From positions 62,001 to 126,000 of the forward strand of contig NZ_FXAY01000006.1 of the NCBI RefSeq assembly GCF_900177685.1: a stretch of 64,000 nucleotides of DNA, written 5' to 3'. Below are positions 138 to 33,334 of the stretch, piece by piece; within the stretch, counting starts at the first letter, position 1, and each line of letters starts with the position of its first letter. The position numbers were made by a program, and so were the translations under genes. The DNA is from Agreia pratensis. Lineage in GTDB: Bacteria > Actinomycetota > Actinomycetes > Actinomycetales > Microbacteriaceae. The notes under the pieces were generated by a model that was not told the DNA's origin, did no database searches, and worked only from the letters and a program-made list of their open reading frames with translations.

Positions 138-1816
138 TCGGTCGTCGCGCGCCTCTCTTGAAGCTCGAGGCCGTAGGCGCGCGACGGCTCGATACCGGGA
201 GGGTTCTCTCGATCGGGCATGCGTGAGAAGCCGCGCCGCTCATAGAGTCCGTGCGCGGTGGTCATCTCAGTTCCACTGTTCATGACCACGCGCTCGGCCC
301 CGCGCTCGCGGGCGAGGTCGATGACGAAGTCGGTGAGGATGCTGCCCACGCGACGCCCGCGCGACGCGGGGTCGACGGCGAGCAGGCGGAAGTCGAACTC
401 TCCCGGCCTGCCCAGCGGCGTCAGCAGCTCGCCCGGTCGAGGCGTCGTGACAGAACCCAGGATGCGGCCGGTCGCGTCGTCGACGGCGACCCACACCTCG
501 CCGATGGCCGCGTGACGCGGCACATCGAGGATCTGCACCGCGTAGTCGTCGCCGATGGTGAAGTCGAGCCGATACGCCTCGAGTCGCTGGCGAGCGATCT
601 CGTCGTGCTCGTCGGGGCGGGCGAGGCGCACGGAGATGCCGCCCGGCTCGGGCGTCTGCGCATCCGGCTGCCGTCGCGCTGGCTCGGGCAGGCGACGGAT
701 GCCCTCGAGCAGGTCGTCGAGACCGGCGGCGACACAGATGCGGATCCACCCCTCTCCCCCGCGACCGAAGGCGCTGCCCGGAGCCACGGCGACCCGTTTC
801 TCGAGCAGGAAACGCTCAGCCCATCCCGCCACGTCGCCGCCCGTCGCGTATCCGACGTCCACCCACAGATAGAAGGCGCCTGACGGCTGCAGATACTCGA
901 TTCCTCGCTCGCGCAGAAGTGCGGTGGCGGCGTCGAGGTTCTGCCTGTAGTGCAGGCCCGCTGTTCTCACGTGCTGCTGATCGCCCCCGACGGCCACGAG
1001 GGCGGCCAACTGCGCGGGCGTGTTGACACAGCTGATCATCGCCTCCTGCGCCGTGCGCATGATCGTCGACAGCCCCGGAGGTGTGACGAGGTATCCCACT
1101 CGCGCGCCCGTGAGCGCGTAGGTCTTCGACAGCGAGAACACGGAGAAGACCCGGTCGTCGGCATCGAGACTCGCCACCGACACATGCGGGGAGTCGTAGC
1201 TGAAGGCCTCATAGACCTCGTCGCTCACGATCCAGAGGTCGTGCTGCCTCGCGAATTCGACGAGTGCCCGCAGAGTCTCCTCAGGAAAGACCGACCCGAG
1301 CGGATTCGATGGCGAGTTGATGATGATCATGCGGGTGCGCGGCGTGATGAGCCTCGTCAGCTCATCGAAGTCCGGCAGAAAAGCGTTGTCTCGGCGCAGC
1401 GGATACGGCACCGAGACCGCGGAAATCATGGCCGCGTTCATCGCGAAGGTCGAGTAGCCCGGATCGGGAATGAGGACTTCATCTCCGGGCCCGAGAGTGA
1501 GACTCATCGCGAGATAGAGAGCCTGCATGCCGCCGCACGTCACCCAGACCTGCTCCGTGTCGACGACGACGCCGTTGTCGCGTGCCAGCTTGCGAACCAG
1601 GGCCTCGCGAAGTGCGGGAAGGCCCCCGTTCGGCCCATAATCGGTCTCGTCGGCGAGCCAGGCATCCGAGCCTGCTCTGAGGATCTCGGGCGCGACATCG
1701 ACGTCGGGCTCCCCCACCGCGAGCATCACCACGTCGTCGAGTGCCAGCGCCATCTCGAAGATGCGCCGGATTCCCGACGGAGGAACGGAATCGATGTGGG
1801 ATGCGAGCTGTGGCAT
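134..1816 (-). CDS. Aminotransferase class I/II fused to a GNAT acetyltransferase
   Basis: A 560-residue protein with two domains. Residues 1-385 are a fold-type I PLP aminotransferase: NSPSNP at 168-173, SDEVY at 198-202, the Schiff-base lysine in SLSKTYALTGARVGY (K231), and the carboxylate-binding Arg in WIRI (R359). Residues about 394-555 form a GNAT N-acetyltransferase domain, with the acetyl-CoA loop around LLAVDPASRGRRVGSIL. The start is set at the ATG that opens MPQLASHIDSVPPSGIR, as in related aspartate-type aminotransferases; an upstream extension of the frame has no family match and runs through low-quality sequence. The amino acid substrate is not evident. The fusion suggests that the transamination product or its precursor is N-acetylated by the same polypeptide, which is inference. 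It lies alone, divergent from rpsT. Confidence 0.85.
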   Translation of the reverse strand: MPQLASHIDSVPPSGIRRIFEMALALDDVVMLAVGEPDVDVAPEILRAGSDAWLADETDYGPNGGLPALREALVRKLARDNGVVVDTEQVWVTCGGMQALYLAMSLTLGPGDEVLIPDPGYSTFAMNAAMISAVSVPYPLRRDNAFLPDFDELTRLITPRTRMIIINSPSNPLGSVFPEETLRALVEFARQHDLWIVSDEVYEAFSYDSPHVSVASLDADDRVFSVFSLSKTYALTGARVGYLVTPPGLSTIMRTAQEAMISCVNTPAQLAALVAVGGDQQHVRTAGLHYRQNLDAATALLRERGIEYLQPSGAFYLWVDVGYATGGDVAGWAERFLLEKRVAVAPGSAFGRGGEGWIRICVAAGLDDLLEGIRRLPEPARRQPDAQTPEPGGISVRLARPDEHDEIARQRLEAYRLDFTIGDDYAVQILDVPRHAAIGEVWVAVDDATGRILGSVTTPRPGELLTPLGRPGEFDFRLLAVDPASRGRRVGSILTDFVIDLARERGAERVVMNSGTEMTTAHGLYERRGFSRMPDRENPPGIEPSRAYGLELQERRATTD

Positions 1817-1954
1817 GAGAGCATTAAGGCTACGCCTCGGTCGGGGTACGGTGAAACGCCGCAGTCCGCACGGGTAACGCGTTCCTGGGTCACCTCGATA
1901 TTGTCGAGAAGGCACCCGTCTGGTAACGTTGCCTGTTGGCTTACGCTTCCGTCT

Positions 1955-1960
1955 TACTAT
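1955..1960 (+). promoter_or_regulatory. Candidate -10 of rpsT
   Basis: TACTAT fits the TANNNT pattern and lies about 70 bp before the GTG of rpsT. Transcription from here would give a leader of roughly 60 nt. The -35 region is not well matched (TTGCCT at 20 bp, TTGGCT at 13 bp), so this is tentative. Confidence 0.35.
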
Positions 1961-2028
1961 GCGGAGCGAACTCGCGGTCGCCGGTCGATCGCATTGCATT
2001 CATCCGAACACATACAAGAGGTAATTTC

Positions 2029-2289
2029 GTGGCAAACATCAAGTCGCAGATCAAGCGCATCGGCACCAACAAGAAGGCCCAGGAGCGCAATAAGGCCGTC
2101 AAGAGTGGCCTGAAGACCGCTATCCGCGCCACCAAGACCGCTGTCGCCACGGGCGACAAAGACAAGGCCCTCGCCGCGCTGATCGCTGCGGGCAAGAAGC
2201 TCGACAAGGCCGCCTCGAAGGGCGTCATCCACAAGAACCAGGCCGCGAACCGCAAGTCGGCCCTCGCGAAGACCGTCGCCTCTCTCTAA
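2029..2289 (+). CDS. rpsT: 30S ribosomal protein S20
   Basis: An 86-residue basic protein that binds 16S rRNA early in assembly of the small subunit. The sequence opens [30 protein letters not shown] and carries the S20 signature [18 protein letters not shown] near the end; the length is normal. It starts at GTG, preceded by AAGAGG about 8 nt upstream, and the start is fixed because ANIKSQ is the conserved N terminus. It is followed at 30 bp by a strong hairpin terminator. rpsT next to holA, in convergent orientation, is a conserved actinobacterial arrangement. Confidence 0.97.
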
Positions 2290-2318
2290 CGAGAGCCGCT
2301 CTCTCACGAGACGCACGC

Positions 2319-2353
2319 ACGAAAAAAGCCCCGCACTGCGGGGCTTTTTTCGT
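2319..2353. terminator. Bidirectional rho-independent terminator between rpsT and holA
   Basis: The stem is ACGAAAAAAGCCCCGC with its complement after a short ACT loop: an A-run, a GC core and a T-run. It is symmetric, so it can end transcription of rpsT on the plus strand and holA on the minus strand. Confidence 0.93.
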
Positions 2354-2362
2354 ACCTGCCGC

Positions 2363-3391
2363 TCAGTGGGGCAGCTCACCGCGCTCGGCGATGACGCCGA
2401 TCATGCGCTCGAGCGAGTAGACGGCGTCGCGGCTGCCGCCCTTGATGTTCTCGTCGGTCTCGGCGAGCATCTGGATGCTGCGGCCGAGACCCGCACCCGA
2501 CCAGCCGGCCAGGTCGCGGCGGGCTCTGTCTATCTGCCACGGCGCGAGTCCGAGTTGGCCGGCGAGTTGGCCTGATCCGCCGCGGGTGCCCAACACCTTG
2601 GCCATCGTGCGGAGCTTCATGGCGAACGCGGCGACCATGGGCACCGGATCTGCACCCGACGCGAGCGCGTGACGAGCGAGTGCGAGCGCCTCGCCGTGTC
2701 GACCGGCGATCGCCATGTCAGCGACCGCGAAGGCGCTGGCCTCGACGCGGCCGCCGTAGTACCGGTCGACAGTGGCCTCCGTGATCTCGGCCGACGCATC
2801 GGCCACGAGCTGCTGGCACGCGCTGGAGAGTTCGGTGAGGTCGTCGGAGAACGCGGCGACCAGGGCCCTGAGCGCACCCGCCGAAACGCGGCGCCCTGCA
2901 GCGCGGAACTCGGAAGAGGCGAACTCGTAGCGTTCGGCGTCTTTCTTGAGTTCGGCGCAGACGATCTCGATTCCTCCACCCGAACCGGATCGGATCGCAT
3001 CGAGCAGCCGCTTGCCTCTGACACCGCCGCCGTGCCGAAGCACGAGGTAGGTGTCGTCTGCCGGGTTCTCGAGATAGGAGATGGTCTCGCTGAGGAAGTC
3101 GTCGGTGCACTTTTCGACTGAGGAGACGCGGATCATGCGCGGCTCGGCGAAGAGTGACGGGCTCGCGACGGTGAGCAGCTCGCCCGGCGCGTACGACGAC
3201 GCGTCGATGTCGGAGACTTCGAGACTCGGGTCCTCCAGCTTCAGCAGCTCACGGAGCTGCCGGATGCTGCGTTCGGCAAGAAACGACTCCGTGCCCGACA
3301 CGAGGACGACCGGCGCGGGGCGCACCTGCTCCCAGGAGAGCTGCGGGATCGAGGCCTTCGCCGTTTGTTTTGCGCCGCGTGCAGTAGCCAC
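2363..3391 (-). CDS. holA: DNA polymerase III subunit delta
   Basis: A 342-residue protein, normal for HolA. Delta opens the beta sliding clamp within the clamp-loader complex at the replication fork. The N-terminal part reads PAPVVLVSGTESFLAERSIRQL, the degenerate AAA+ nucleotide-site region seen in delta subunits. The C-terminal helical collar includes LGLAPWQIDRARRDLAGWS. It follows comEA and comEC on the same strand, the usual order in Gram-positive genomes. The first 151 bp lie inside the 3' end of comEC in another frame. Confidence 0.93.
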   Translation of the reverse strand: MATARGAKQTAKASIPQLSWEQVRPAPVVLVSGTESFLAERSIRQLRELLKLEDPSLEVSDIDASSYAPGELLTVASPSLFAEPRMIRVSSVEKCTDDFLSETISYLENPADDTYLVLRHGGGVRGKRLLDAIRSGSGGGIEIVCAELKKDAERYEFASSEFRAAGRRVSAGALRALVAAFSDDLTELSSACQQLVADASAEITEATVDRYYGGRVEASAFAVADMAIAGRHGEALALARHALASGADPVPMVAAFAMKLRTMAKVLGTRGGSGQLAGQLGLAPWQIDRARRDLAGWSGAGLGRSIQMLAETDENIKGGSRDAVYSLERMIGVIAERGELPH

Positions 3392-5859
3392 GTGTCCTCA
3401 CTTACGTCGTTTCTCGTATCGAGCCTACTCGGCGGCACAGACACGAGTGACGCGGCACCGGCACCGGCCGTCTTCTCGCTCCAGACGACCGTGTCGCCGT
3501 CCTCGATCGACACCACGACGAGGCCGAGCAGGTCGGTGCGGAAGACCCGGGTTCCGGCGCCCGCGAGGATCTCGAGAATGCGATCGTTCGGGTGCCCGTA
3601 GTCATTGTCGGCGCCCACCGAGATGAGTCCTGCTCGAGCGCGGATGCGGTTGTAGAGTTCGGCGCTCTGATCGCCTGATCCGTGGTGGGCCACCTTCACC
3701 ACGTCGACCGGGCCGAGTCTGCCCTCGGCCATCAACCGAGCCTGGTCGCTCTCGCCGAGGTCTCCGAGGAACAACGCATCGATGTCTCCCGAGAACCTCA
3801 TGGTGACACTCGCGCCGTTACCACGGAGTGTCGTGTCGGCCGTGGGCCAGAGCACCTCCCAACGAAGTGCTCCGAGCTCTCCCCTGTCGCCTCGTGCCGC
3901 CTGCTGGACTATCGCTCCGGACTCGACGACACGACGCACGATCACCTCGTCGGACGGGCCATCGACAGGTCCGACCAGCACGGCGTCTGCTCGGCCCACC
4001 ACTGCATCGAGACCGCCGATGTGATCGAGGTCGAAGTGTGTGATCACGAGGAGATCGATACGACCGATCTGCATACGCTCGAGACAGGCCCGCAAGAGAT
4101 CGGGATCCGGCCCCGTGTCGATGAGGGCTGTCACATCACCGCTTTTCACAAGCACAGCATCGCCCTGCCCGATATCGCATGCCGCGATACGCCAGTTCTG
4201 CGGTACAGAGAAGCGGAGCGCGATGGTGCCGCCGATCATCACCCCGCCGTACACGCCGACGATCGCAGCTGCCAGGAACACCGCCATCGCGCGCCGGAGC
4301 CGCGGAGCGCCGGAGGCAAGGAGAACCCAGAGCGCCAGGGCGGTCAAGACAAGCACGAGCAGGGCGCCGAGAAGACCCGGCACCCACGGTAGCCGTGCAC
4401 CGGGTGCATCAGCGAAGAACCGAGCGACAGCGCCGATCCACGCTGCCGGCAGCCAGCACAGCCATGCGGCCGGCACGGCCACGGGTGGGATGAGTGAGCC
4501 CACCAGACAGCCCAGCAGACCCACGACGGTGGCGATAGGAGCGGCCGGAGCCGCGAGCAGGTTCGCCGGAATGCTGTACGGAGCAACCGTGGGTGTGAGG
4601 AGGGCGAGCACAGGCTGGCAGGCGAGCTGGGCAGCAAGCGGCACAGCGATGACGGCCGCCAGCCATGGCGGCATCCAGCGAGAGAGAGCGGATGTGACGG
4701 GCCGGGTGAGCAGCAGGAGCCCGGCTGTTGCGAGCGAGGAGAGTGCGAAACCGAAGCTGTGCGAGAGCCACGGATCGGTGACGATGAGACTGATGACCGC
4801 CAGGCAGAGCACGGGCATGCCTCGAGCGGAGCGAGACGCCCCGATCGACACGAGAACGATGGCCGCCATGGCCGCCGCACGAATGACGCTCGGCTGCGGT
4901 GTGACGAGGATGACGAAGAGCACCAGCACCGCACCGGCCATACCGAGTCGCGCGCCTCGACGAAGACCGGCGAAGCCGGCGATGAGGAACGCCCCCGCGA
5001 TGACGATGGCGCAGTTGGCGCCGGAGACGGCGGTGAGATGGCTGAGGCCGCTGTCTTTCATCGACTCGTCGAGCGAGGCATCGACCAGGGAATCGTCGCC
5101 CAGGGCGAGTCCGGGTACCAGCTCTGCGCCATCGCCGGGGAGGCCTCGCGCGGAATCAGCGAATCGGGCTCGTAGCTCGGCCGCCCAGGCAAGCTGCCAT
5201 CCAGGAGGCCGGACAGTCTGCGGGTGGCCCTCTGCGAACGCGAGCCACGCAGTCTGGGATCCGTCGTCGGTGGCGCGGAATCGTGCATCGACGCGGATCG
5301 TCGATCCGATGGCGGGCGCGTCGGCCGTGCCGAGACCGTCGACGAAGACCAGCACCCGTGTCGACGTGCGGTCACTCCGACTGTCGGCGTTCTGAAGGCG
5401 ATGCAGGGTCGCCTCGAATCGCACACCCGACAGCGACTCGCCGCCGAAGCCGGAGTGAGCAGTCTCGGCCGGTGTTCCCACAACCTCGAGCTCGGCCGAC
5501 AGCGCCGTCTGCGTCTCGTCAAGAAGCAACGGGGGCTCTCGCAGAGGCTGGAGAACGAGCACCGCGACCGCGACGCACGCGCCGATGCCCGCACACACAG
5601 CGACCGTCGGGAGAGCACGGCGCGTTCCTCGTCGAACCCGGCCCCATCGAGATGCCCCCACGGTCGGGGCAAGCAACCGCCACAGCGTCAGCGAGACCGC
5701 GAGGCAGGCGACCGCGCCGATCAGAACGGATGACGCAGCAGTCGGCTGCCCGACGAGCACGAATGCGGCGCCCCATGCGAAAAGAGCCGGAGCCGTCAGG
5801 CGATGATCGGCCCACCGTGTAGAACCTGGATTCCGTGGCTCACGCCGCGGCCCGCTCAT
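3241..5859 (-). CDS. comEC: ComEC/Rec2 competence family DNA channel
   Basis: An 872-residue integral membrane protein. It has an N-terminal hydrophobic region, a multi-pass Competence domain in the middle (DSGLSHLTAVSGANCAIV is the characteristic start of this domain), and a C-terminal metallo-beta-lactamase domain with VITHFDLDHIGGLDAV and VAHHGSGDQS. Family members carry single-stranded DNA across the cytoplasmic membrane. The start ATG overlaps the comEA stop (ATGA), so the two are probably translated together. The frame continues about 50 residues into holA, and this Arg/Ser-rich tail has no family match. Confidence 0.92.
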   Translation of the reverse strand: MSGPRREPRNPGSTRWADHRLTAPALFAWGAAFVLVGQPTAASSVLIGAVACLAVSLTLWRLLAPTVGASRWGRVRRGTRRALPTVAVCAGIGACVAVAVLVLQPLREPPLLLDETQTALSAELEVVGTPAETAHSGFGGESLSGVRFEATLHRLQNADSRSDRTSTRVLVFVDGLGTADAPAIGSTIRVDARFRATDDGSQTAWLAFAEGHPQTVRPPGWQLAWAAELRARFADSARGLPGDGAELVPGLALGDDSLVDASLDESMKDSGLSHLTAVSGANCAIVIAGAFLIAGFAGLRRGARLGMAGAVLVLFVILVTPQPSVIRAAAMAAIVLVSIGASRSARGMPVLCLAVISLIVTDPWLSHSFGFALSSLATAGLLLLTRPVTSALSRWMPPWLAAVIAVPLAAQLACQPVLALLTPTVAPYSIPANLLAAPAAPIATVVGLLGCLVGSLIPPVAVPAAWLCWLPAAWIGAVARFFADAPGARLPWVPGLLGALLVLVLTALALWVLLASGAPRLRRAMAVFLAAAIVGVYGGVMIGGTIALRFSVPQNWRIAACDIGQGDAVLVKSGDVTALIDTGPDPDLLRACLERMQIGRIDLLVITHFDLDHIGGLDAVVGRADAVLVGPVDGPSDEVIVRRVVESGAIVQQAARGDRGELGALRWEVLWPTADTTLRGNGASVTMRFSGDIDALFLGDLGESDQARLMAEGRLGPVDVVKVAHHGSGDQSAELYNRIRARAGLISVGADNDYGHPNDRILEILAGAGTRVFRTDLLGLVVVSIEDGDTVVWSEKTAGAGAASLVSVPPSRLDTRNDVSEDTWLLHAAQNKRRRPRSRSSPGSRCAPRRSSSCRARSRFLPNAASGSSVSC

Positions 5860-27255: not shown

Positions 27256-27322
27256 GGCGCCGATCCTTTCATGAGGGATGTGCTGACCATCTTAGTTGCG
27301 TCAGGGCGGCAGAATAGAGAAC

Positions 27323-28060
27323 ATGTGTGGTCGTTTCGTCGTGTCCCGTACAGCCGGTGACCTGGTCGCCGTCTTCGACGTCGACGTGGAGGGCGCAGGG
27401 TTGCCCGAGCCGTCGTGGAATGTGGCTCCGACGCAGCAGATTCCGGTGATCATCGACGCGATCAATCGCGCAGCCGCGACCGATGAAGACGCGCCCGCCG
27501 TGCTGAGGCGGCTAGAGCCGGCCCGCTGGGGACTCGTGCCGGCGTTCGCGACCGGGCCCGCGGCATCCGCGCCCCTGTTCAACGCTCGCATCGAGACGGC
27601 GGCCGAGAAACCGGCGTTCCGCGAGGCCGTTGCCGCGCGCCGCGCAGCGATTCCGGCCTCGGGCTACTACGAGTGGCTTATCGCGCCCGACGGCAGCAAG
27701 ACGCCGCAGTTCGTCTCGGCCGGCGACGATGAGCCGATCCTCTTCGCCGGATTGTACGAGTGGTGGCGCAATCCCGCCGTAGCTGCCGACGATCCCGCCC
27801 GCTGGCTGCTCTCGACCACCATCCTGACCCGGCCGGGCGCTGGGCCGCTCGGGTCGTTGCACGAGCGCATGCCCGTGTTCCTCGAGCCGGGCCTGATGGA
27901 GGACTGGCTCGATCCGCGCACGACGGGAGACGCTGGGCTTCTCGCCGACATCTCACTGGCCGCTGAGGAACTGGCCGAGGATATGGTGTTCCACACCGTC
28001 GGGGCCGCTGTGGGTTCGGTCGGCAACAACTCGCCGGAGCTGGTACTGCCGGTCGACTGA
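27323..28060 (+). CDS. SOS response-associated peptidase (SRAP/YedK/HMCES family)
   Basis: A 245-residue protein that forms a stable thiazolidine crosslink with abasic sites in single-stranded DNA. Cys2 (MCGRFVV) is the reactive residue after Met removal. Other active-site motifs are FNARIETAAEKPAFR, SGYYEWL and LHERMPVFL (Glu and His). The ATG before CGRF is required for function, so an upstream ATG in the same frame is rejected. A DNA-repair role agrees with the polymerase-like and glycosylase genes 1.3 kb downstream, though they are not contiguous. Confidence 0.95.
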   Translation: MCGRFVVSRTAGDLVAVFDVDVEGAGLPEPSWNVAPTQQIPVIIDAINRAAATDEDAPAVLRRLEPARWGLVPAFATGPAASAPLFNARIETAAEKPAFREAVAARRAAIPASGYYEWLIAPDGSKTPQFVSAGDDEPILFAGLYEWWRNPAVAADDPARWLLSTTILTRPGAGPLGSLHERMPVFLEPGLMEDWLDPRTTGDAGLLADISLAAEELAEDMVFHTVGAAVGSVGNNSPELVLPVD

Positions 28061-28080: not shown

Positions 28081-29163
28081 GTGCGACACTGGGGTGTGCG
28101 GAAATCGGATAAGCCCCTCTCGGCCAAGCAGGGCGCCGAAGTCATCATTCACCGCGCGGCCCGCATCGAAGACGCGGTGCACGAGTTCCGCCAGAAACGC
28201 GCGCAGGCCAGGGGCAAGATACCCACGGTCATCCCGTACACCGGCTACGGTTCGACCAGCTGGGTTCGGGTCCTTGCCCGGGTACTCCTGACGACCCCGC
28301 CCCGGCCTGGTTCGCGAGAACATCGAATAGCCCGAACACAGCACGAGAGCGTGCGCGGCTGGAGGAGCTTCACGAGCGTTCCCTTCGGCAATGCCTCGGT
28401 CACGGTCGAAGCGGGCGGTAGATCTCACGCCGTCGCAGCCGATCGGGGCGGCGTCGTCGATGCCGTCATCGAGGTCGCACTCGAGCCCGGTTGGCAGACG
28501 GTCACCATCGGAATCGAGGGTGGCCAGACGGTCGAGGCTCCCATCTTCGTGCTCGATCCCTCCTCACGCTTCGGCGTCGTCAGCGACATCGACGACACCG
28601 TGATGGTCACGGCCTTGCCGAGGCCTCTGCTCGCCGCCTGGAATACCTTCGTGCTCGACGAGCACGCTCGAGTGCCCACACCAGGCATGGCCGTGCTTCT
28701 CGAACGATTGACGACCGAGAACCCCAGCTCCCCCGTCGTCTACCTGTCGACGGGTGCGTGGAACGTCGCGCCGACGCTCAGCCGGTTCCTCTCGCGCAAC
28801 CTCTATCCCGCCGGCCCCCTGCTCCTCACCGACTGGGGACCGACGCACGACCGCTGGTTCCGCAGTGGACGCGAGCACAAACGTGAGAACCTGCGGCGCC
28901 TCGCCCGAGAGTTTCCCGATGTGCGCTGGTTGCTCATCGGTGACGACGGGCAGCACGACGAGGAGATCTATGCCGACTTCGCCATCGACTATCCCGACAG
29001 CATCGCGGCCGTAGCGATACGACAGCTCTCGAACAGCGAAGCCGTGCTTGCCGGCGGCCGTTCGAAAGACGAGGTGCACACGGAGCGCACCGGCGCGACC
29101 TGGGTGTACGCCCCCGATGGTGCCGGCCTCTCTACTCAGCTCACCGAAGCCGGCATCCTCTAG
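28081..29163 (+). CDS. App1 family (DUF2183) phosphatidate phosphatase-like protein
   Basis: A 360-residue protein with a HAD-like catalytic core: SDIDDTVM near residue 168 is the DxDxT motif, and YLSTGAWNVAPTLSRFLSRNLYP with LIGDDGQHDEEIY completes it. Yeast App1 dephosphorylates phosphatidate; bacterial substrates are not known. Two in-frame GTG codons (28081 and 28096) are possible starts, and neither has a clear ribosome site. Confidence 0.85.
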   Translation: MRHWGVRKSDKPLSAKQGAEVIIHRAARIEDAVHEFRQKRAQARGKIPTVIPYTGYGSTSWVRVLARVLLTTPPRPGSREHRIARTQHESVRGWRSFTSVPFGNASVTVEAGGRSHAVAADRGGVVDAVIEVALEPGWQTVTIGIEGGQTVEAPIFVLDPSSRFGVVSDIDDTVMVTALPRPLLAAWNTFVLDEHARVPTPGMAVLLERLTTENPSSPVVYLSTGAWNVAPTLSRFLSRNLYPAGPLLLTDWGPTHDRWFRSGREHKRENLRRLAREFPDVRWLLIGDDGQHDEEIYADFAIDYPDSIAAVAIRQLSNSEAVLAGGRSKDEVHTERTGATWVYAPDGAGLSTQLTEAGIL

Positions 29164-29251: not shown

Positions 29252-29276
29252 TTCGAATATAGAAGATATATTCGAA
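29252..29276. promoter_or_regulatory. 25-bp AT-rich perfect palindrome upstream of the DnaE2-like gene
   Basis: The arms are TTCGAATATA and TATATTCGAA with a GAAGA spacer. It stands out as AT-rich in a GC-rich region. TATATT in the right arm could be a -10. It lies in the 197-bp gap before the DnaE2-like gene, a likely operator. It does not contain the CGAAC-N4-GTTCG LexA box. Confidence 0.6.
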
Positions 29277-29356
29277 TGTCTCCCGATCGGAGTTCGGCCA
29301 TGAACATCGAGGCGTCGCCCACCGTCGAGCGAACAATCGGCGAATCTCTCCTCTGA
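29276..29356 (+). CDS. Possible 26-residue leader ORF
   Basis: ATG at the edge of the palindrome opens a short frame (MSPDRSSAMNIEASPTVERTIGESLL) that stops 4 nt before the ATG of the DnaE2-like gene. No ribosome site is obvious and no family is recognised. It could be a translated leader or a chance frame. Confidence 0.2.
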   Translation: MSPDRSSAMNIEASPTVERTIGESLL

Positions 29357-29360
29357 CGCC

Positions 29361-32195
29361 ATGGCTCGATTCACCCACCTGCACGTCGCGTCGACTTTCT
29401 CCCCGAACGTCGGAACGGCGCAACCAGCGGCGCTCGTCGCTTCGGCCGCCGCGGGCGGCGCCGATGTCGCGGCCATCACCGATCGCGATGGTCTGTACGG
29501 CGCCATTCCGCACCTGCGAGCCTGCCTCGCCGCGGGCATCGACGCGATGGTCGGGGTCGATCTCGCTCTGCTGCCCGACAGAACCGATCGAGTGCTACCC
29601 GGTGACTCATTGCCGAGGCGGGTCACCGTATTGGCGCACGGGCAGAATCGTGGCAAGGGATGGTCCGCACTGTGCCGACTCATCAGCCGGGCCCACGAGT
29701 CCGAAGCGGACGGCTCGCAGCGACACCCGAGCGGCATCGGCATTGAGCGATCTGACCTCAGAGACCTCATCCTCACTGAATCGACGCCCGTAGCGACGGT
29801 GCTGCTCGGGCCAGACTCCGACGTGGCGCACGCCGTCGCCTCTGCCGACTTCGCACGCGCCGCATCGACCCTCGCCGAATGGAAGCACCTGCTGCCCGGC
29901 GCGATGGCGGTCGAGGTCGTGTGTCACCTCAACGAACCAGGCGATGTCGCGAGCATCCGCCACGCCGCACGCATGCTCGAACTCGCCGATCTCGTCGGTG
30001 TGCCCGCCGTGCTCAGCAATGCTGTTCGGTATCTGCGACCCGACGCTGCGGCTCCCGGAGACATGCTCGGAGCATTCCTGTCTCAACCGGATACTCAGGC
30101 GTGGCTCAAGCCCGCCGTCGCCATGAGGCGGCTTGCCTCGCTCATCGTCGACCATTCATCGCTGCGTCGATCCGCGATCGAGCGACTGCTGTCGACCACC
30201 GAGGGCCTCGCCGACACGTGCAGACTCGATACGTTGGCCGACCTCGCCTGGCGCCGACCCAAGGTTCCCTCGAGGGCGGCTCTCCGCATCGAGGCAGACC
30301 CCATCGCCGAACTGCGCCGACGCAGCGACTCCGCTCTACTCGAACGCTATGCGCATGCACGGCCAAGTGATCTCGAATCGCTCAAGGTCCACCTCGACAA
30401 CGAGATCGACATGATCGGGCGGCTCGGCCTCGCGAGCTACGTTCTCACCGTCGCCGAGGTGTCGTCGCTGATGAGGTCCATGAGGGTGCGCAACCAGGCG
30501 CGTGGCTCCGGCACGGGAGACCTGGTGAACTATCTGCTGCGCATCTCCAGCGTCGACCCGGCACGACACGGCCTGCTGTCCGAGCGCCCTCCCGACAGCC
30601 CGGCATCCAGACCCGTCATCGCCATCGATGTCGAATCGAACAGACTAGACGACGTCTACCGGGCCATCATCGAACGCTTCGGCGACAATCGGGTGGCCCT
30701 CGTGTCACACCACGTCAGCACACCCCCGAGCAGCCTCATCCTCGGAGCTGACGACCTTCTCGACACGACTCCTACTCAACCCAGCAGCATCGGCCTGCCC
30801 ATGAGCCAGTACGCCACGAACGACCTGGAGGACGTCGGCCTACTGGCACTCGATGTGCTCGGGTCGCAGACGCAGAGCACGCTCGCCGACGCTGTGTCCG
30901 AGATCCGTCGCATCCACGGCCGTCTTGCGGCTCAGGCGGGTGGCCTGCCGGTCGACGCCCCCTACGTCGGCAGTGACGGCTCGATCGAGCTCGACGAGAT
31001 TCCGCTCGACGACGAGGCGACCTTCGAGTCGATCCGCACTGGCCACACCGTCGGTATGTTCTACATCGAAAGCCAGTCGCAGCGCGAACGGATCCGCACG
31101 ATACGCCCGACCGAGTTCGATGATCTCATCTCCATCGAAAGCTCAGACGACACACCCAAGGCGCACTGCGTCGCGCTCGCGCATTCGACATTTCAGAGCG
31201 CCTGGATCAAAACCCACTATCCCGCCGAATTCCTGGCCGCCCTGCTCACCCACGACAGGGGAACGCACCGACGCGATCTGCTGCTCGCCGAAGCCCGGCG
31301 AATGCGTGTGCCGATCCTGCCGATCGACGTCAATGCTTCAACAGAGGCCTACCGCACAGAGCGTATCGACCCGCCCCGATCGCGCGGCGTGCTGGCCGAT
31401 CCCGACGACGTGATCCTCGGCATCCGCCTGTCGCTCGGCGACGTGCACGGCATGACCGCGATCGAGCTTGATCGCATCCTGGCGAACCGCCCCTACGTCG
31501 GCATCGATGACTTCTACCACCGCGCTGCCCCATCGCCCGCCTTGCTCACGACGCTCGGAGTCATCGGTTCCCTCGACTCCGTGGCCGCCTCAGACATATC
31601 GCCACGCAGTCCGCAGGCGATCCGAGGAGCTGTCATGGCTCGAGTACGCGAACTGACGGCCCAACGTAAGCGCCCCGCCACCCGGCACACCCACCCCACC
31701 TTGCCGGTTCTCGTCGACGACAGCCACCAGCCGAACGAGGTCGACGCCGAGCGGATGACCGTCTCGCCGAGGCCAACCGAGCCCGATGGGCCGCCCACAA
31801 AGTCCGGCCGTAACGCGATCGAAAGCTACCGTCTGATGCTCGATGAACTCGGAGCTCTGCCCACCGGCGACCTGTCCAGCTGCGACGACGACGAGGCCGT
31901 GCTGGTGGCAGGAACCCGCGTCGCCACACGAACTCTGCCGAAGAGCAACGGCGAACGCGTGGTCTCGGTCAGCCTCGACGACGGTTCAGGATGCGCCGAC
32001 TCGATCTTCTTCGACGAAGCGCAAGACCGCGCGGGCACCCTTCTCTTCGGCACGAAGCTGATGCTGATCCAGGGAAAGACGCGGCACACAGAAGATCGCG
32101 GAATCTCGATCGAGGCAAGCAACGTCTGGGATCTGAAGGCTCTGTGGGCGCAATGGCAGCTGACGCAACGGCGTCAGGCACAGGAGGCCTCGTGA
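29361..32195 (+). CDS. DnaE2/ImuC-like polymerase III alpha homologue, apparently catalytically dead
   Basis: A 944-residue protein; DnaE2 is usually near 1,080. Order of parts: a PHP domain with HLHVASTFS and ITDRDGLYGA (1-250); palm with GSGTGD (382-387) and VDPARHGLLSER (398-409); the segment that should read PDxDxDF is PVIAIDVESNR (418-428), so the first two catalytic Asp are Val419 and Ala421 while Asp423 remains; LALDVLG (495-501) keeps the third catalytic Asp (D498). FYIESQSQRERIR corresponds to FQLESxGM. The sequence then jumps from DLISIESSDDTPK to KAHCVALAHSTFQSAWIKTHYPAEF, so about 120 residues of the usual RPGP...QEQVM...GFPESHA region are missing. An HhH region and an OB fold (VLVAGTRVATRTLPKSNGERVVSVSLDDGSG, 847-877) are retained. 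The frame is intact and codon use normal, so this is not an obvious pseudogene. The stop overlaps the glycosylase start. Confidence 0.75.
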   Translation: MARFTHLHVASTFSPNVGTAQPAALVASAAAGGADVAAITDRDGLYGAIPHLRACLAAGIDAMVGVDLALLPDRTDRVLPGDSLPRRVTVLAHGQNRGKGWSALCRLISRAHESEADGSQRHPSGIGIERSDLRDLILTESTPVATVLLGPDSDVAHAVASADFARAASTLAEWKHLLPGAMAVEVVCHLNEPGDVASIRHAARMLELADLVGVPAVLSNAVRYLRPDAAAPGDMLGAFLSQPDTQAWLKPAVAMRRLASLIVDHSSLRRSAIERLLSTTEGLADTCRLDTLADLAWRRPKVPSRAALRIEADPIAELRRRSDSALLERYAHARPSDLESLKVHLDNEIDMIGRLGLASYVLTVAEVSSLMRSMRVRNQARGSGTGDLVNYLLRISSVDPARHGLLSERPPDSPASRPVIAIDVESNRLDDVYRAIIERFGDNRVALVSHHVSTPPSSLILGADDLLDTTPTQPSSIGLPMSQYATNDLEDVGLLALDVLGSQTQSTLADAVSEIRRIHGRLAAQAGGLPVDAPYVGSDGSIELDEIPLDDEATFESIRTGHTVGMFYIESQSQRERIRTIRPTEFDDLISIESSDDTPKAHCVALAHSTFQSAWIKTHYPAEFLAALLTHDRGTHRRDLLLAEARRMRVPILPIDVNASTEAYRTERIDPPRSRGVLADPDDVILGIRLSLGDVHGMTAIELDRILANRPYVGIDDFYHRAAPSPALLTTLGVIGSLDSVAASDISPRSPQAIRGAVMARVRELTAQRKRPATRHTHPTLPVLVDDSHQPNEVDAERMTVSPRPTEPDGPPTKSGRNAIESYRLMLDELGALPTGDLSSCDDDEAVLVAGTRVATRTLPKSNGERVVSVSLDDGSGCADSIFFDEAQDRAGTLLFGTKLMLIQGKTRHTEDRGISIEASNVWDLKALWAQWQLTQRRQAQEAS

Positions 32196-33334
32196 GTACC
32201 GAGACATCGTCTCCCGGTTCGGCGCAGAATGGGCGCATGCGACGCACGGATCGGGCACGGCTCGCGAACCTCAGGCTGGTCTCCCAGAACCTGGTCGCAA
32301 GCACACTCTCCTCGCCGGCAGACGCTGCGTTCTCGATGCTCGCAACACAGGCGCAAGACCTCTCGTCGGCGCAGTGGGCCCTGGCCGTTCGCAGTCCGGG
32401 GTCGTCGATCGCCGATGTCGACCGGGCTTTCAACGACGGCTCGATCGTGCGGTCGTGGCCCTTTCGGGGAACTCTCCATGTCATCCCGGCCGCAGACCTC
32501 GGGTGGATGCTCGCCCTGACCCGAGACAGAACTCTGCGCGGCGCGACAACAAGGCACACCGGCCTAGGACTCGATGACCAGATCTTTTCGCGCGCCGCCG
32601 ATGTCGTCCGCAGTTCGCTGCAAGGCGGTGGGCGCTTGTCGCGGGCGGCCCTCCTCGCCGAGCTCGACGCATCCGGCATCGCCACCGACCACCAGCGCGG
32701 CGGCCACATCATCTGGTATCTGGCTCATACGGGCCTCATCTGTTTCGGTCCGATGGAGACGTCGGGCCAGGCCGTGGTACTGACCGACGAGTGGGTTCCT
32801 GAGCCCCGCCAGCTCTCCCCCGACGAGGCCCTGACCGAGCTCGCTGTGCGCTACTTCTCCTCACACGGGCCCGCGACCCTGCGCGATCTTCTGTGGTGGA
32901 GCAAGGTCTTGGTACCCGAGGCGCGAGGGGCGATCGAGAGGGCGGGCGACAGGCTCCGCCAGATTGTCATCGACAACACTGTCTACTATTTGGCCGCCGA
33001 TCAGACCGCTGAGGCCGTGGCCCCGGGCCTCCTGCTGCTCCCCGGCTTCGACGAGTACCTCCTGGGCTACACCGACCGCGACGCGGTGCTGCCGCCGCAG
33101 CACAGCGCCCGAATCGTGCCTGGATCGAACGGCATCTTCCTTCCGATGGTCGTATCGAGCGGTCAGGTGGTCGGCACCTGGCGACGAACGGTTCGACGCG
33201 CATCAGTCGATACCGCCGCGACGACATTCGAACCGATGACCCCGACGAGTGCCGCCCGCTACAGAAAGGCAGCCCAGGGCTACGCGCGGTACCTCGGTCT
33301 GAACCTCGGCGAGGCGACGATCGCCGACTCATAG
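32192..33334 (+). CDS. Winged-helix DNA-binding protein of the AlkZ/YcaQ DNA glycosylase superfamily
   Basis: A 380-residue protein of the winged helix family PF06224 (HTH_42), which includes AlkZ and AlkX/YcaQ, glycosylases that unhook interstrand crosslinks and remove bulky N-alkyl adducts. The Q-x-Q catalytic motif is TQAQDL (Q53, Q55). SIVRSWPFRGTLHVIPAADLGWMLALT and LLLLPGFDEYLLGYTDRDAVL are other family segments. The GTG overlaps the stop of the DnaE2-like gene (GTGA), with AGGAGG 4 nt upstream, so it is probably translationally coupled. Together the pair suggests crosslink or adduct repair. Confidence 0.85.
   Translation: MSTETSSPGSAQNGRMRRTDRARLANLRLVSQNLVASTLSSPADAAFSMLATQAQDLSSAQWALAVRSPGSSIADVDRAFNDGSIVRSWPFRGTLHVIPAADLGWMLALTRDRTLRGATTRHTGLGLDDQIFSRAADVVRSSLQGGGRLSRAALLAELDASGIATDHQRGGHIIWYLAHTGLICFGPMETSGQAVVLTDEWVPEPRQLSPDEALTELAVRYFSSHGPATLRDLLWWSKVLVPEARGAIERAGDRLRQIVIDNTVYYLAADQTAEAVAPGLLLLPGFDEYLLGYTDRDAVLPPQHSARIVPGSNGIFLPMVVSSGQVVGTWRRTVRRASVDTAATTFEPMTPTSAARYRKAAQGYARYLGLNLGEATIADS

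Follow-up and report, generated by a model that had tools for sequence, protein, structure and literature searches.

The 64,000-nucleotide stretch of the Agreia pratensis genome analyzed here (the window; contig NZ_FXAY01000006.1, positions 62,001 to 126,000) contains a gene for a C-family (DnaE-type) DNA polymerase of 944 amino acids that is almost certainly unable to polymerize DNA, judging from the residues and domains it has lost. The reading that we favor, at a probability of about 0.58, is that the gene encodes an SOS-controlled pseudopolymerase, a shell that has been retained by selection and that likely docks nonproductively. More than one species has kept both the frame and the SOS-type site. 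This conservation suggests a continuing role for the inactive protein, and a retained function of some kind appears somewhat probable.

Comparisons within the genus Agreia covered eight genomes, namely, G000 (the window's own genome), G077, G140, G192 (L001, Agreia bicolorata), G238, G278, G299, and G300. The type of gene found at the shared locus is marked "a," a second type is marked "b," and the dead short copy of G238 is called G238s. A homolog is present in the same surroundings in all eight genomes. It is intact in five (G077, G140, G278, G299, and G300; 1,134 to 1,165 amino acids, with a PDIDxD motif) and dead in three, namely, the window, G192 (967 amino acids), and G238 (886 codons, more degenerate but uninterrupted). 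A survey of the family covered 69 places in 68 genomes, hand-picked from those of the matches listed that cover the N-terminal half, with C-terminal pieces and most contig-end pieces left out and the longest-matching frame used at each place. These 69 proteins and 10 from Agreia, the window's gene included, formed an alignment of 79 proteins; a first tree was built from 28 of them, and the topology test (approximately unbiased [AU] test) used 14. The features of the gene and its control site, all on the forward strand, are as follows.

29260 to 29275, +: SOS (LexA)-box-like operator TAGAAGATATATTCGA, found by pattern match
29361 to 32195, +: dead DnaE2B-like protein, 944 amino acids, with an ATG start and no internal stop
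29361 to 30035, +: PHP domain, residues 1 to 225 (Pfam PF02811 at residues 6 to 186)
30612 to 30629, +: mutated catalytic motif P418-V-I-A-I-D423 (D401V, D403A), from alignment with intact relatives
30705 to 30710, +: thumb deletion junction S449/H450, 77 residues lost, from alignment
30852 to 30854, +: third catalytic Asp, kept (D498), from alignment
31134 to 31157, +: finger deletion junction, residues 592 to 599 versus about 122 residues in intact relatives, from alignment
31155 to 31595, +: beta-binding/(HhH)2 module, residues 599 to 745, the most constrained part (Pfam HHH_6 at residues 650 to 742)
31692 to 31712, +: eroded presumed clamp motif HPTLPVL, from comparison with relatives
31851 to 32192, +: C-terminal OB region, relaxed, from alignment and a weak match to chain 5fku_A

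Loss of catalytic residues, thumb, and fingers

The preliminary description of this gene, made from the letters of the DNA alone, held that the first two catalytic Asp residues are lost and the third is kept, and the alignment bears this out. The intact motif PDIDIDV is changed to PVIAIDV in the window (D401V and D403A, with D405 kept), and LKLDVLG is changed to LALDVLG, in which the third Asp remains; the Escherichia coli numbering (D401, D403, and D555) follows the published motif. The same description reported a missing segment from RPGP onward. This is correct for the fingers, where the 122 to 123 residues between RPGP and KAH in intact relatives are reduced to 8 to 9, but a second lost block had been overlooked, namely, the thumb, with 77 residues missing between the second and third Asp in comparison with five intact relatives (a gap of 86 alignment columns, 9 of which are gaps in the intact relatives). 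The dead copy of G192 has both Asp substitutions and the identical 77-residue loss, and at the finger junction it retains about 20 residues more than the window's copy. An assembly error was ruled out because this independent genome shares the substitutions and the thumb loss.

Pfam matches to PHP, DNA_pol3_alpha, DNA_pol3_finger, and HHH_6 were found in the 944-amino-acid protein, with DNA_pol3_alpha covering only profile positions 3 to 132 of 260 and DNA_pol3_finger only positions 19 to 70 of 166. The protein also matches solved DNA polymerase III alpha subunits, with 5fku_A matching only weakly over the OB region, which has no Pfam match at an E value of 0.001 in the window's copy and was placed by alignment to relatives. 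The single uninterrupted frame of 944 codons with PHP, palm remnant, HhH, and OB regions is thus as first described, the OB region by alignment only. Of the parts expected in an active C-family polymerase, PHP, (HhH)2, and OB are present, the three catalytic positions read V, A, and D, and the thumb and fingers are gone, which supports the earlier view that the alpha-type protein is catalytically dead. An AlphaFold model with only the window and L001 sequences as input gave a predicted local distance difference test score of 31.5 and a predicted template modeling score of 0.25, values too low for the model to be usable.

Four intact relatives carry QPTLPIF, which we take to be the clamp motif; it reads QPTLPIL in G192 and HPTLPVL in the window. 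The proposal that the protein recruits the clamp is therefore not supported, and a clamp scaffold is disfavored for the window's copy by this erosion.

Selection on the dead copies

Because the window's copy and the G192 copy share the dead features, all of the divergence between them postdates inactivation, provided that these features were inherited from a common ancestor. For this pair, nonsynonymous divergence (dN) was 0.180 and synonymous divergence (dS) was 0.521, giving a dN/dS of 0.345 (bootstrap range, 0.28 to 0.41). Neutral simulations, 100 in each of four settings, gave values of 0.64 to 1.39 and never fell below 0.64. Neither copy contains a stop, the simulated means being 7 to 22, and none of 800 simulations (200 in each of two settings and 100 in each of four) was free of stops.

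Constraint is unevenly distributed along the dead pair. The dN/dS was 0.28 (0.19 to 0.41) in PHP, 0.27 in residues 226 to 330, 0.31 in the palm, 0.40 in residues 491 to 598, and 0.53 in the linker; it fell to 0.16 in both residues 599 to 665 (0.06 to 0.32) and the HhH region (0.08 to 0.29) and was 0.55 (0.31 to 0.96) in the OB region. Three intact pairs gave 0.01 to 0.32 in residues 599 to 745 and 0.02 to 0.10 in OB. Compared with these, the HhH module of the dead copies has stayed inside the range of functional constraint, and the OB region has not. Over the whole gene, the intact pairs G077a-G299a and G077a-G140a gave 0.057 at a dS of 0.52 and 0.104 at a dS of 0.67, respectively, and the more distant intact pair G077a-G300a gave 0.248.

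A decaying gene is expected to collect stops or frameshifts and to approach a dN/dS of 1. No stop was found in the three dead Agreia copies, and the overall value is well short of 1. These substitution patterns provide good evidence that the dead polymerase is not simply decaying. The b-type fragments found in the genus were tried as a control for decay and proved weak, since five fragments have a dN/dS of 0.08 to 0.11, a sign of recent death.

SOS-box-like control site

The operator TAGAAGATATATTCGA, named by what we take to be the LexA consensus, is the sole such site in the window (both strands, at most two mismatches, 0.01 expected by chance). In the same genome, the box ahead of recA differs from it by one letter, and the boxes at an alkB-like gene and at an imuB-dnaE2 cassette differ from it by two. 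Across the whole genome, the pattern TMGAANNNNNNTTCGA had 12 matching places (11 matches forward and 10 in reverse), and the reversed control had 2 and 4 matches. The center is AT rich at 6 of the 12 places, and 5 of these 6 lie at or before the 5' ends of recA, the window's polymerase gene, the imuB-dnaE2 cassette, and genes for a 2OG-Fe(II) oxygenase and a radical-SAM protein. All three dead loci have the identical box, as do the intact a-type loci of G077, G140, G278, and G299; the fifth intact a-type locus, that of G300, differs, and the b-type loci carry SOS-like sites of their own. A further SOS-box-like site, TCGAATATATGTTCGA, was seen in the same genome, in L161 around position 1500.

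Placement in a third DnaE clade and loss of the DUF6504 partner

The intact copy G077a scored 594 bits with the NCBIfam model for DnaE1 and 587 bits with that for error-prone DnaE, both below the cutoff, and the genome's own DnaE1 and 1,139-amino-acid DnaE2 scored 1,522 and 1,441 bits, each with its own model. In a second tree, which included one DnaE1 and lacked the sequences of PMC12926913, support was 100% for the window-type clade and 100% for four 1,139-amino-acid DnaE2 proteins. By these sequence comparisons, the gene is in a third clade of the C family, which is roughly as distant from DnaE1 as from classical DnaE2. The initial reading is changed in that the gene is not the partner of imuA/imuB, and DnaE2B-like is the best name for this type.

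The available text of PMC12926913 describes groups of DnaE2B, the fifth of which is linked only to ImuB-C, with Arthrobacter alpinus as an example, and states that genomes with DnaE2B lack ImuA and ImuB. The syntenic intact relatives resemble this group, being apart from DnaE1 and classical DnaE2 (DnaE2A) and having a small DUF6504 gene directly upstream; we infer that DUF6504 is the ImuB-C family of that paper. This DUF6504 open reading frame (ORF) is found directly upstream of all seven intact Agreia copies, b type included, and at none of the three dead loci. In both the window (29300 to 29356, +) and G192, all that is left of it is an 18-codon ORF, which keeps the start of the full gene and has its stop 4 nucleotides before the polymerase start, a remnant in place of the stand-alone partner. 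No DUF6504 match was found in the whole G000 genome at an E value of 0.001, and in G192 a match below the family cutoff lies beside a b-type fragment. Among 14 control genomes, DUF6504 was matched in one, that of Caulobacter, which presumably has an ImuB.

The window's gene differs from DnaE2B in lacking the catalytic Asp residues, thumb, fingers, and partner and in that G000 encodes imuB-dnaE2. On contig C8 (L058) of G000, the 1,139-amino-acid DnaE2 has a Y-family-type gene (IMS Pfam match) directly upstream, which is preceded, behind an SOS box, by a 242-amino-acid ORF without a Pfam match that would be ImuA' by position only. The earlier observation that no imuA/imuB adjoins the polymerase holds at the locus, but the genome search found this intact cassette elsewhere, and a lost mutasome, as might be supposed from the missing genes, was rejected. 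That G000 has this cassette alongside its DnaE2B-like gene is contrary to the statement in the available text of PMC12926913. A 1,139-amino-acid second DnaE was matched in seven of the eight Agreia genomes and was not seen in G300, the assembly of which is fragmented; the check for an adjoining imuB covered G000 alone. Intact b-type copies are present in G077 and G238, the latter on a 64-kb contig that is possibly a plasmid, and decayed remains of the b type, in the form of fragments that are short or frameshifted, occur in G192, G140, G238, and G278 (L062, L067, L072, and L074).

Spread and history of the dead copies

The first two Asp residues are both kept in 75 of the 79 aligned proteins. 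The fourth dead copy belongs to another genus (G019; L106, positions 301 to 4325); S and G occupy its two Asp sites, and the thumb motif is missing. Matches at an E value of 1e-60 or better occur in 65 of 396 genomes of the order, the window's own included. Among the matches listed, no further uninterrupted short form was found, with short frames of 673 and 728 amino acids left out, and viral contigs scanned for further usable relatives yielded none. The DnaE2B match of G083 (G083:C1:782924-783943) has one in-frame TGA in its C-terminal part.

The three dead Agreia copies group together against the intact ones in the trees with 96% support, and a topology following the order of the neighboring genes was rejected (AU, 1e-44). 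The neighboring genes of G000, G299, G192, and G077 form nearly a star (support, 48 to 78) in which G000 and G192 are unpaired, and because of this the dead allele may predate the species or may have passed from one to another. The dS between the window's copy and the intact G299 copy is 0.82, versus 0.12 to 0.65 for eight neighboring genes. An old trans-species allele argued from the species tree was left unproven, given the near star.

Several independent inactivations that converged on the same shell are an alternative history, compatible with the other readings, to which we give slightly less than an even chance. G238s has different residues at the Asp sites, has also lost D405 and the third Asp, and keeps 28 aligned residues of the thumb region, of which the dead pair keeps none. 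It lies beside the window's copy within the dead group on a very long branch (1.56 to 1.76), and of two placements outside the group, one was not rejected (AU, P = 0.061). The best trees nevertheless group G238s with the dead pair, and the other outside placement gave a P value of 0.025. Among positions that do not vary in seven intact proteins, there are 36 at which the dead pair has a derived residue in common; G238s has that residue at 7 of them, the ancestral residue at 5, another residue at 18, and a gap at 6. As a yardstick, of the changes found in the window's copy alone, G238s shares 4 of 39, and of those found in G192 alone, it shares 2 of 25.

Possible function and alternative explanations

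In the pseudopolymerase reading, the ancestor would have been an SOS-controlled DnaE of the third type (DnaE2B-like) that worked with a small ImuB-C-like protein (DUF6504). Two metal-binding Asp residues, the thumb, the fingers, and the partner gene would then have been lost, leaving a shell of PHP, palm remnant, HhH/beta-binding module, and OB. Judging from the promoter site, this shell would still be produced after DNA damage, and the substitution rates show that it has been preserved by selection. It may bind DNA through the HhH module, and its PHP and (HhH)2 surfaces may dock nonproductively to DNA, to the ImuB of the intact mutasome, or to both, which would limit or shape error-prone synthesis. 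The mutasome is favored as the target because, in models of the Mycobacterium tuberculosis mutasome in the available text of PMC12926913, DnaE2 and ImuB touch mainly at PHP/ImuB-C and (HhH)2/ImuB thumb; as a specific target it nonetheless appears doubtful. A narrower version seems unlikely, in which the protein is a decoy subunit induced by the SOS response. Its gene would be an old dead allele that either predates some of the species splits or moved among Agreia species, and by docking on ImuB it would occupy the mutasome and so lower mutagenesis.

Several observations weigh against a retained, docking shell. Constraint on the dead pair is about six times weaker than that on the intact pair of equal dS, and eight neighboring genes in the same two species are all tighter (dN/dS, 0.03 to 0.20 at a dS of 0.13 to 0.68). 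Residues 450 to 490, beside the thumb scar, have a dN/dS of 1.08. At unambiguous sites, 96 changes are private to the window's copy and 49 to that of G192, and in PHP the numbers are 24 and 5. On the stem common to the dead pair, residues 599 to 665, the part that was constrained later, changed more than any other (9 of 63), and the presumed clamp motif is eroded in the window's copy. The G019 copy is split by an apparent insertion element of what we take to be the IS3 family. In addition, the docking idea is based on published models of another DnaE2 group.

Much of this fits a slowly decaying pseudogene whose frame stays open only since the SOS transcript leads on to an AlkZ gene, so that stops would be polar, an explanation that we consider possible though not probable. 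The dN/dS far above that of intact copies, the faster change of the window's copy than of its sister, the lost DUF6504 gene, the broken G019 copy, and the AlkZ gene starting 41 bp downstream in the same direction are all consistent with it. Polarity, however, guards against stops and frameshifts and not against amino acid changes, and it leaves unexplained the dN/dS of 0.16 in residues 599 to 745, which is within the spread of the intact pairs. Other dead copies in the genus, those of the b type, have turned frameshifted or short, although the five measured look recently dead. Frameshifts in relatives, which the preliminary description had named as a sign of decay, are absent at the locus in all eight genomes, but one copy in another genus, that of G019, is split by the apparent insertion element.

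A still-active polymerase using other residues is hardly credible, since D405 and the third Asp are kept but two of three metal ligands, the thumb, and the fingers are gone, and the three Asp residues are reported as absolutely conserved in the available text of a 2013 survey of C-family polymerases (PMC3919608). Dead members would have gone uncounted in that survey because, according to the same text, fragments without an intact active site were removed beforehand.

Comparison with known systems

ImuB and other inactivated Y-family polymerases likewise combine a dead active site and SOS-type control with a possible adaptor role; the window's protein belongs to the C family, not the Y family, and an adaptor role is for it a possibility only. 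The inactivated module of eukaryotic Pol epsilon is likewise a dead polymerase fold kept by evolution. That module belongs to the B family and is fused to an active polymerase, whereas the window's gene is stand-alone and occurs in a few Agreia species. Classical DnaE2 of the 1,139-amino-acid type shares the ancestral PHP-Pol-HhH-OB architecture and the SOS box, has 24 to 29% identity to the window's gene and its intact ortholog, and is present as an intact copy elsewhere in G000.

No published account of a dead DnaE was found in a literature search that included the available text of the surveys PMC3919608 and PMC12926913, and a search on Agreia and DNA polymerase returned nothing relevant. 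As far as searched, a decoy, if true, would be without precedent among C-family polymerases as an inactivated member that has a role, and a mirror of ImuB. A single locus in Agreia offers an evolutionary control, since its alleles include intact and dead ones, both kinds have kept the SOS box, and selection on the dead ones can be measured. This makes it testable whether bacteria tune mutagenesis with dead alpha subunits, as they do with the dead Y-family ImuB.

Neighboring genes

The following neighbors of the polymerase gene were identified in the window.

27296 to 28060, +: SRAP DNA damage protein, a conserved neighbor (Pfam and genome comparison)
28081 to 29163, +: APP1-type protein, the upstream neighbor (Pfam and genome comparison)
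32237 to 33334, +: AlkZ-like DNA glycosylase, 41 bp past the polymerase stop (Pfam PF06224)

The AlkZ start codon was picked by eye, and an alternative GTG overlaps the polymerase stop. SRAP, APP1, YceI, and DsbA genes lie beside the polymerase in all eight Agreia genomes, and AlkZ does so in six. With the AlkZ protein as the query, tblastn gave no match adjoining the polymerase in G077 and G300; because AlkZ is missing beside these intact polymerases, the pairing is not obligatory. Recruitment of a glycosylase, as had been suggested, has adjacency as its sole evidence, and three of the six loci with AlkZ have an intact polymerase. By eye, three genes that apparently encode a sensor kinase, a response regulator, and a VTT/DedA-like small membrane protein (Pfam match below the cutoff) separate the polymerase from APP1 in G077, G299, and G238 (L063, 3700 to 6700; L069, 9800 to 12800; and L071, 9100 to 11900), and the three genes are missing in G000, G192, G140, and G278.

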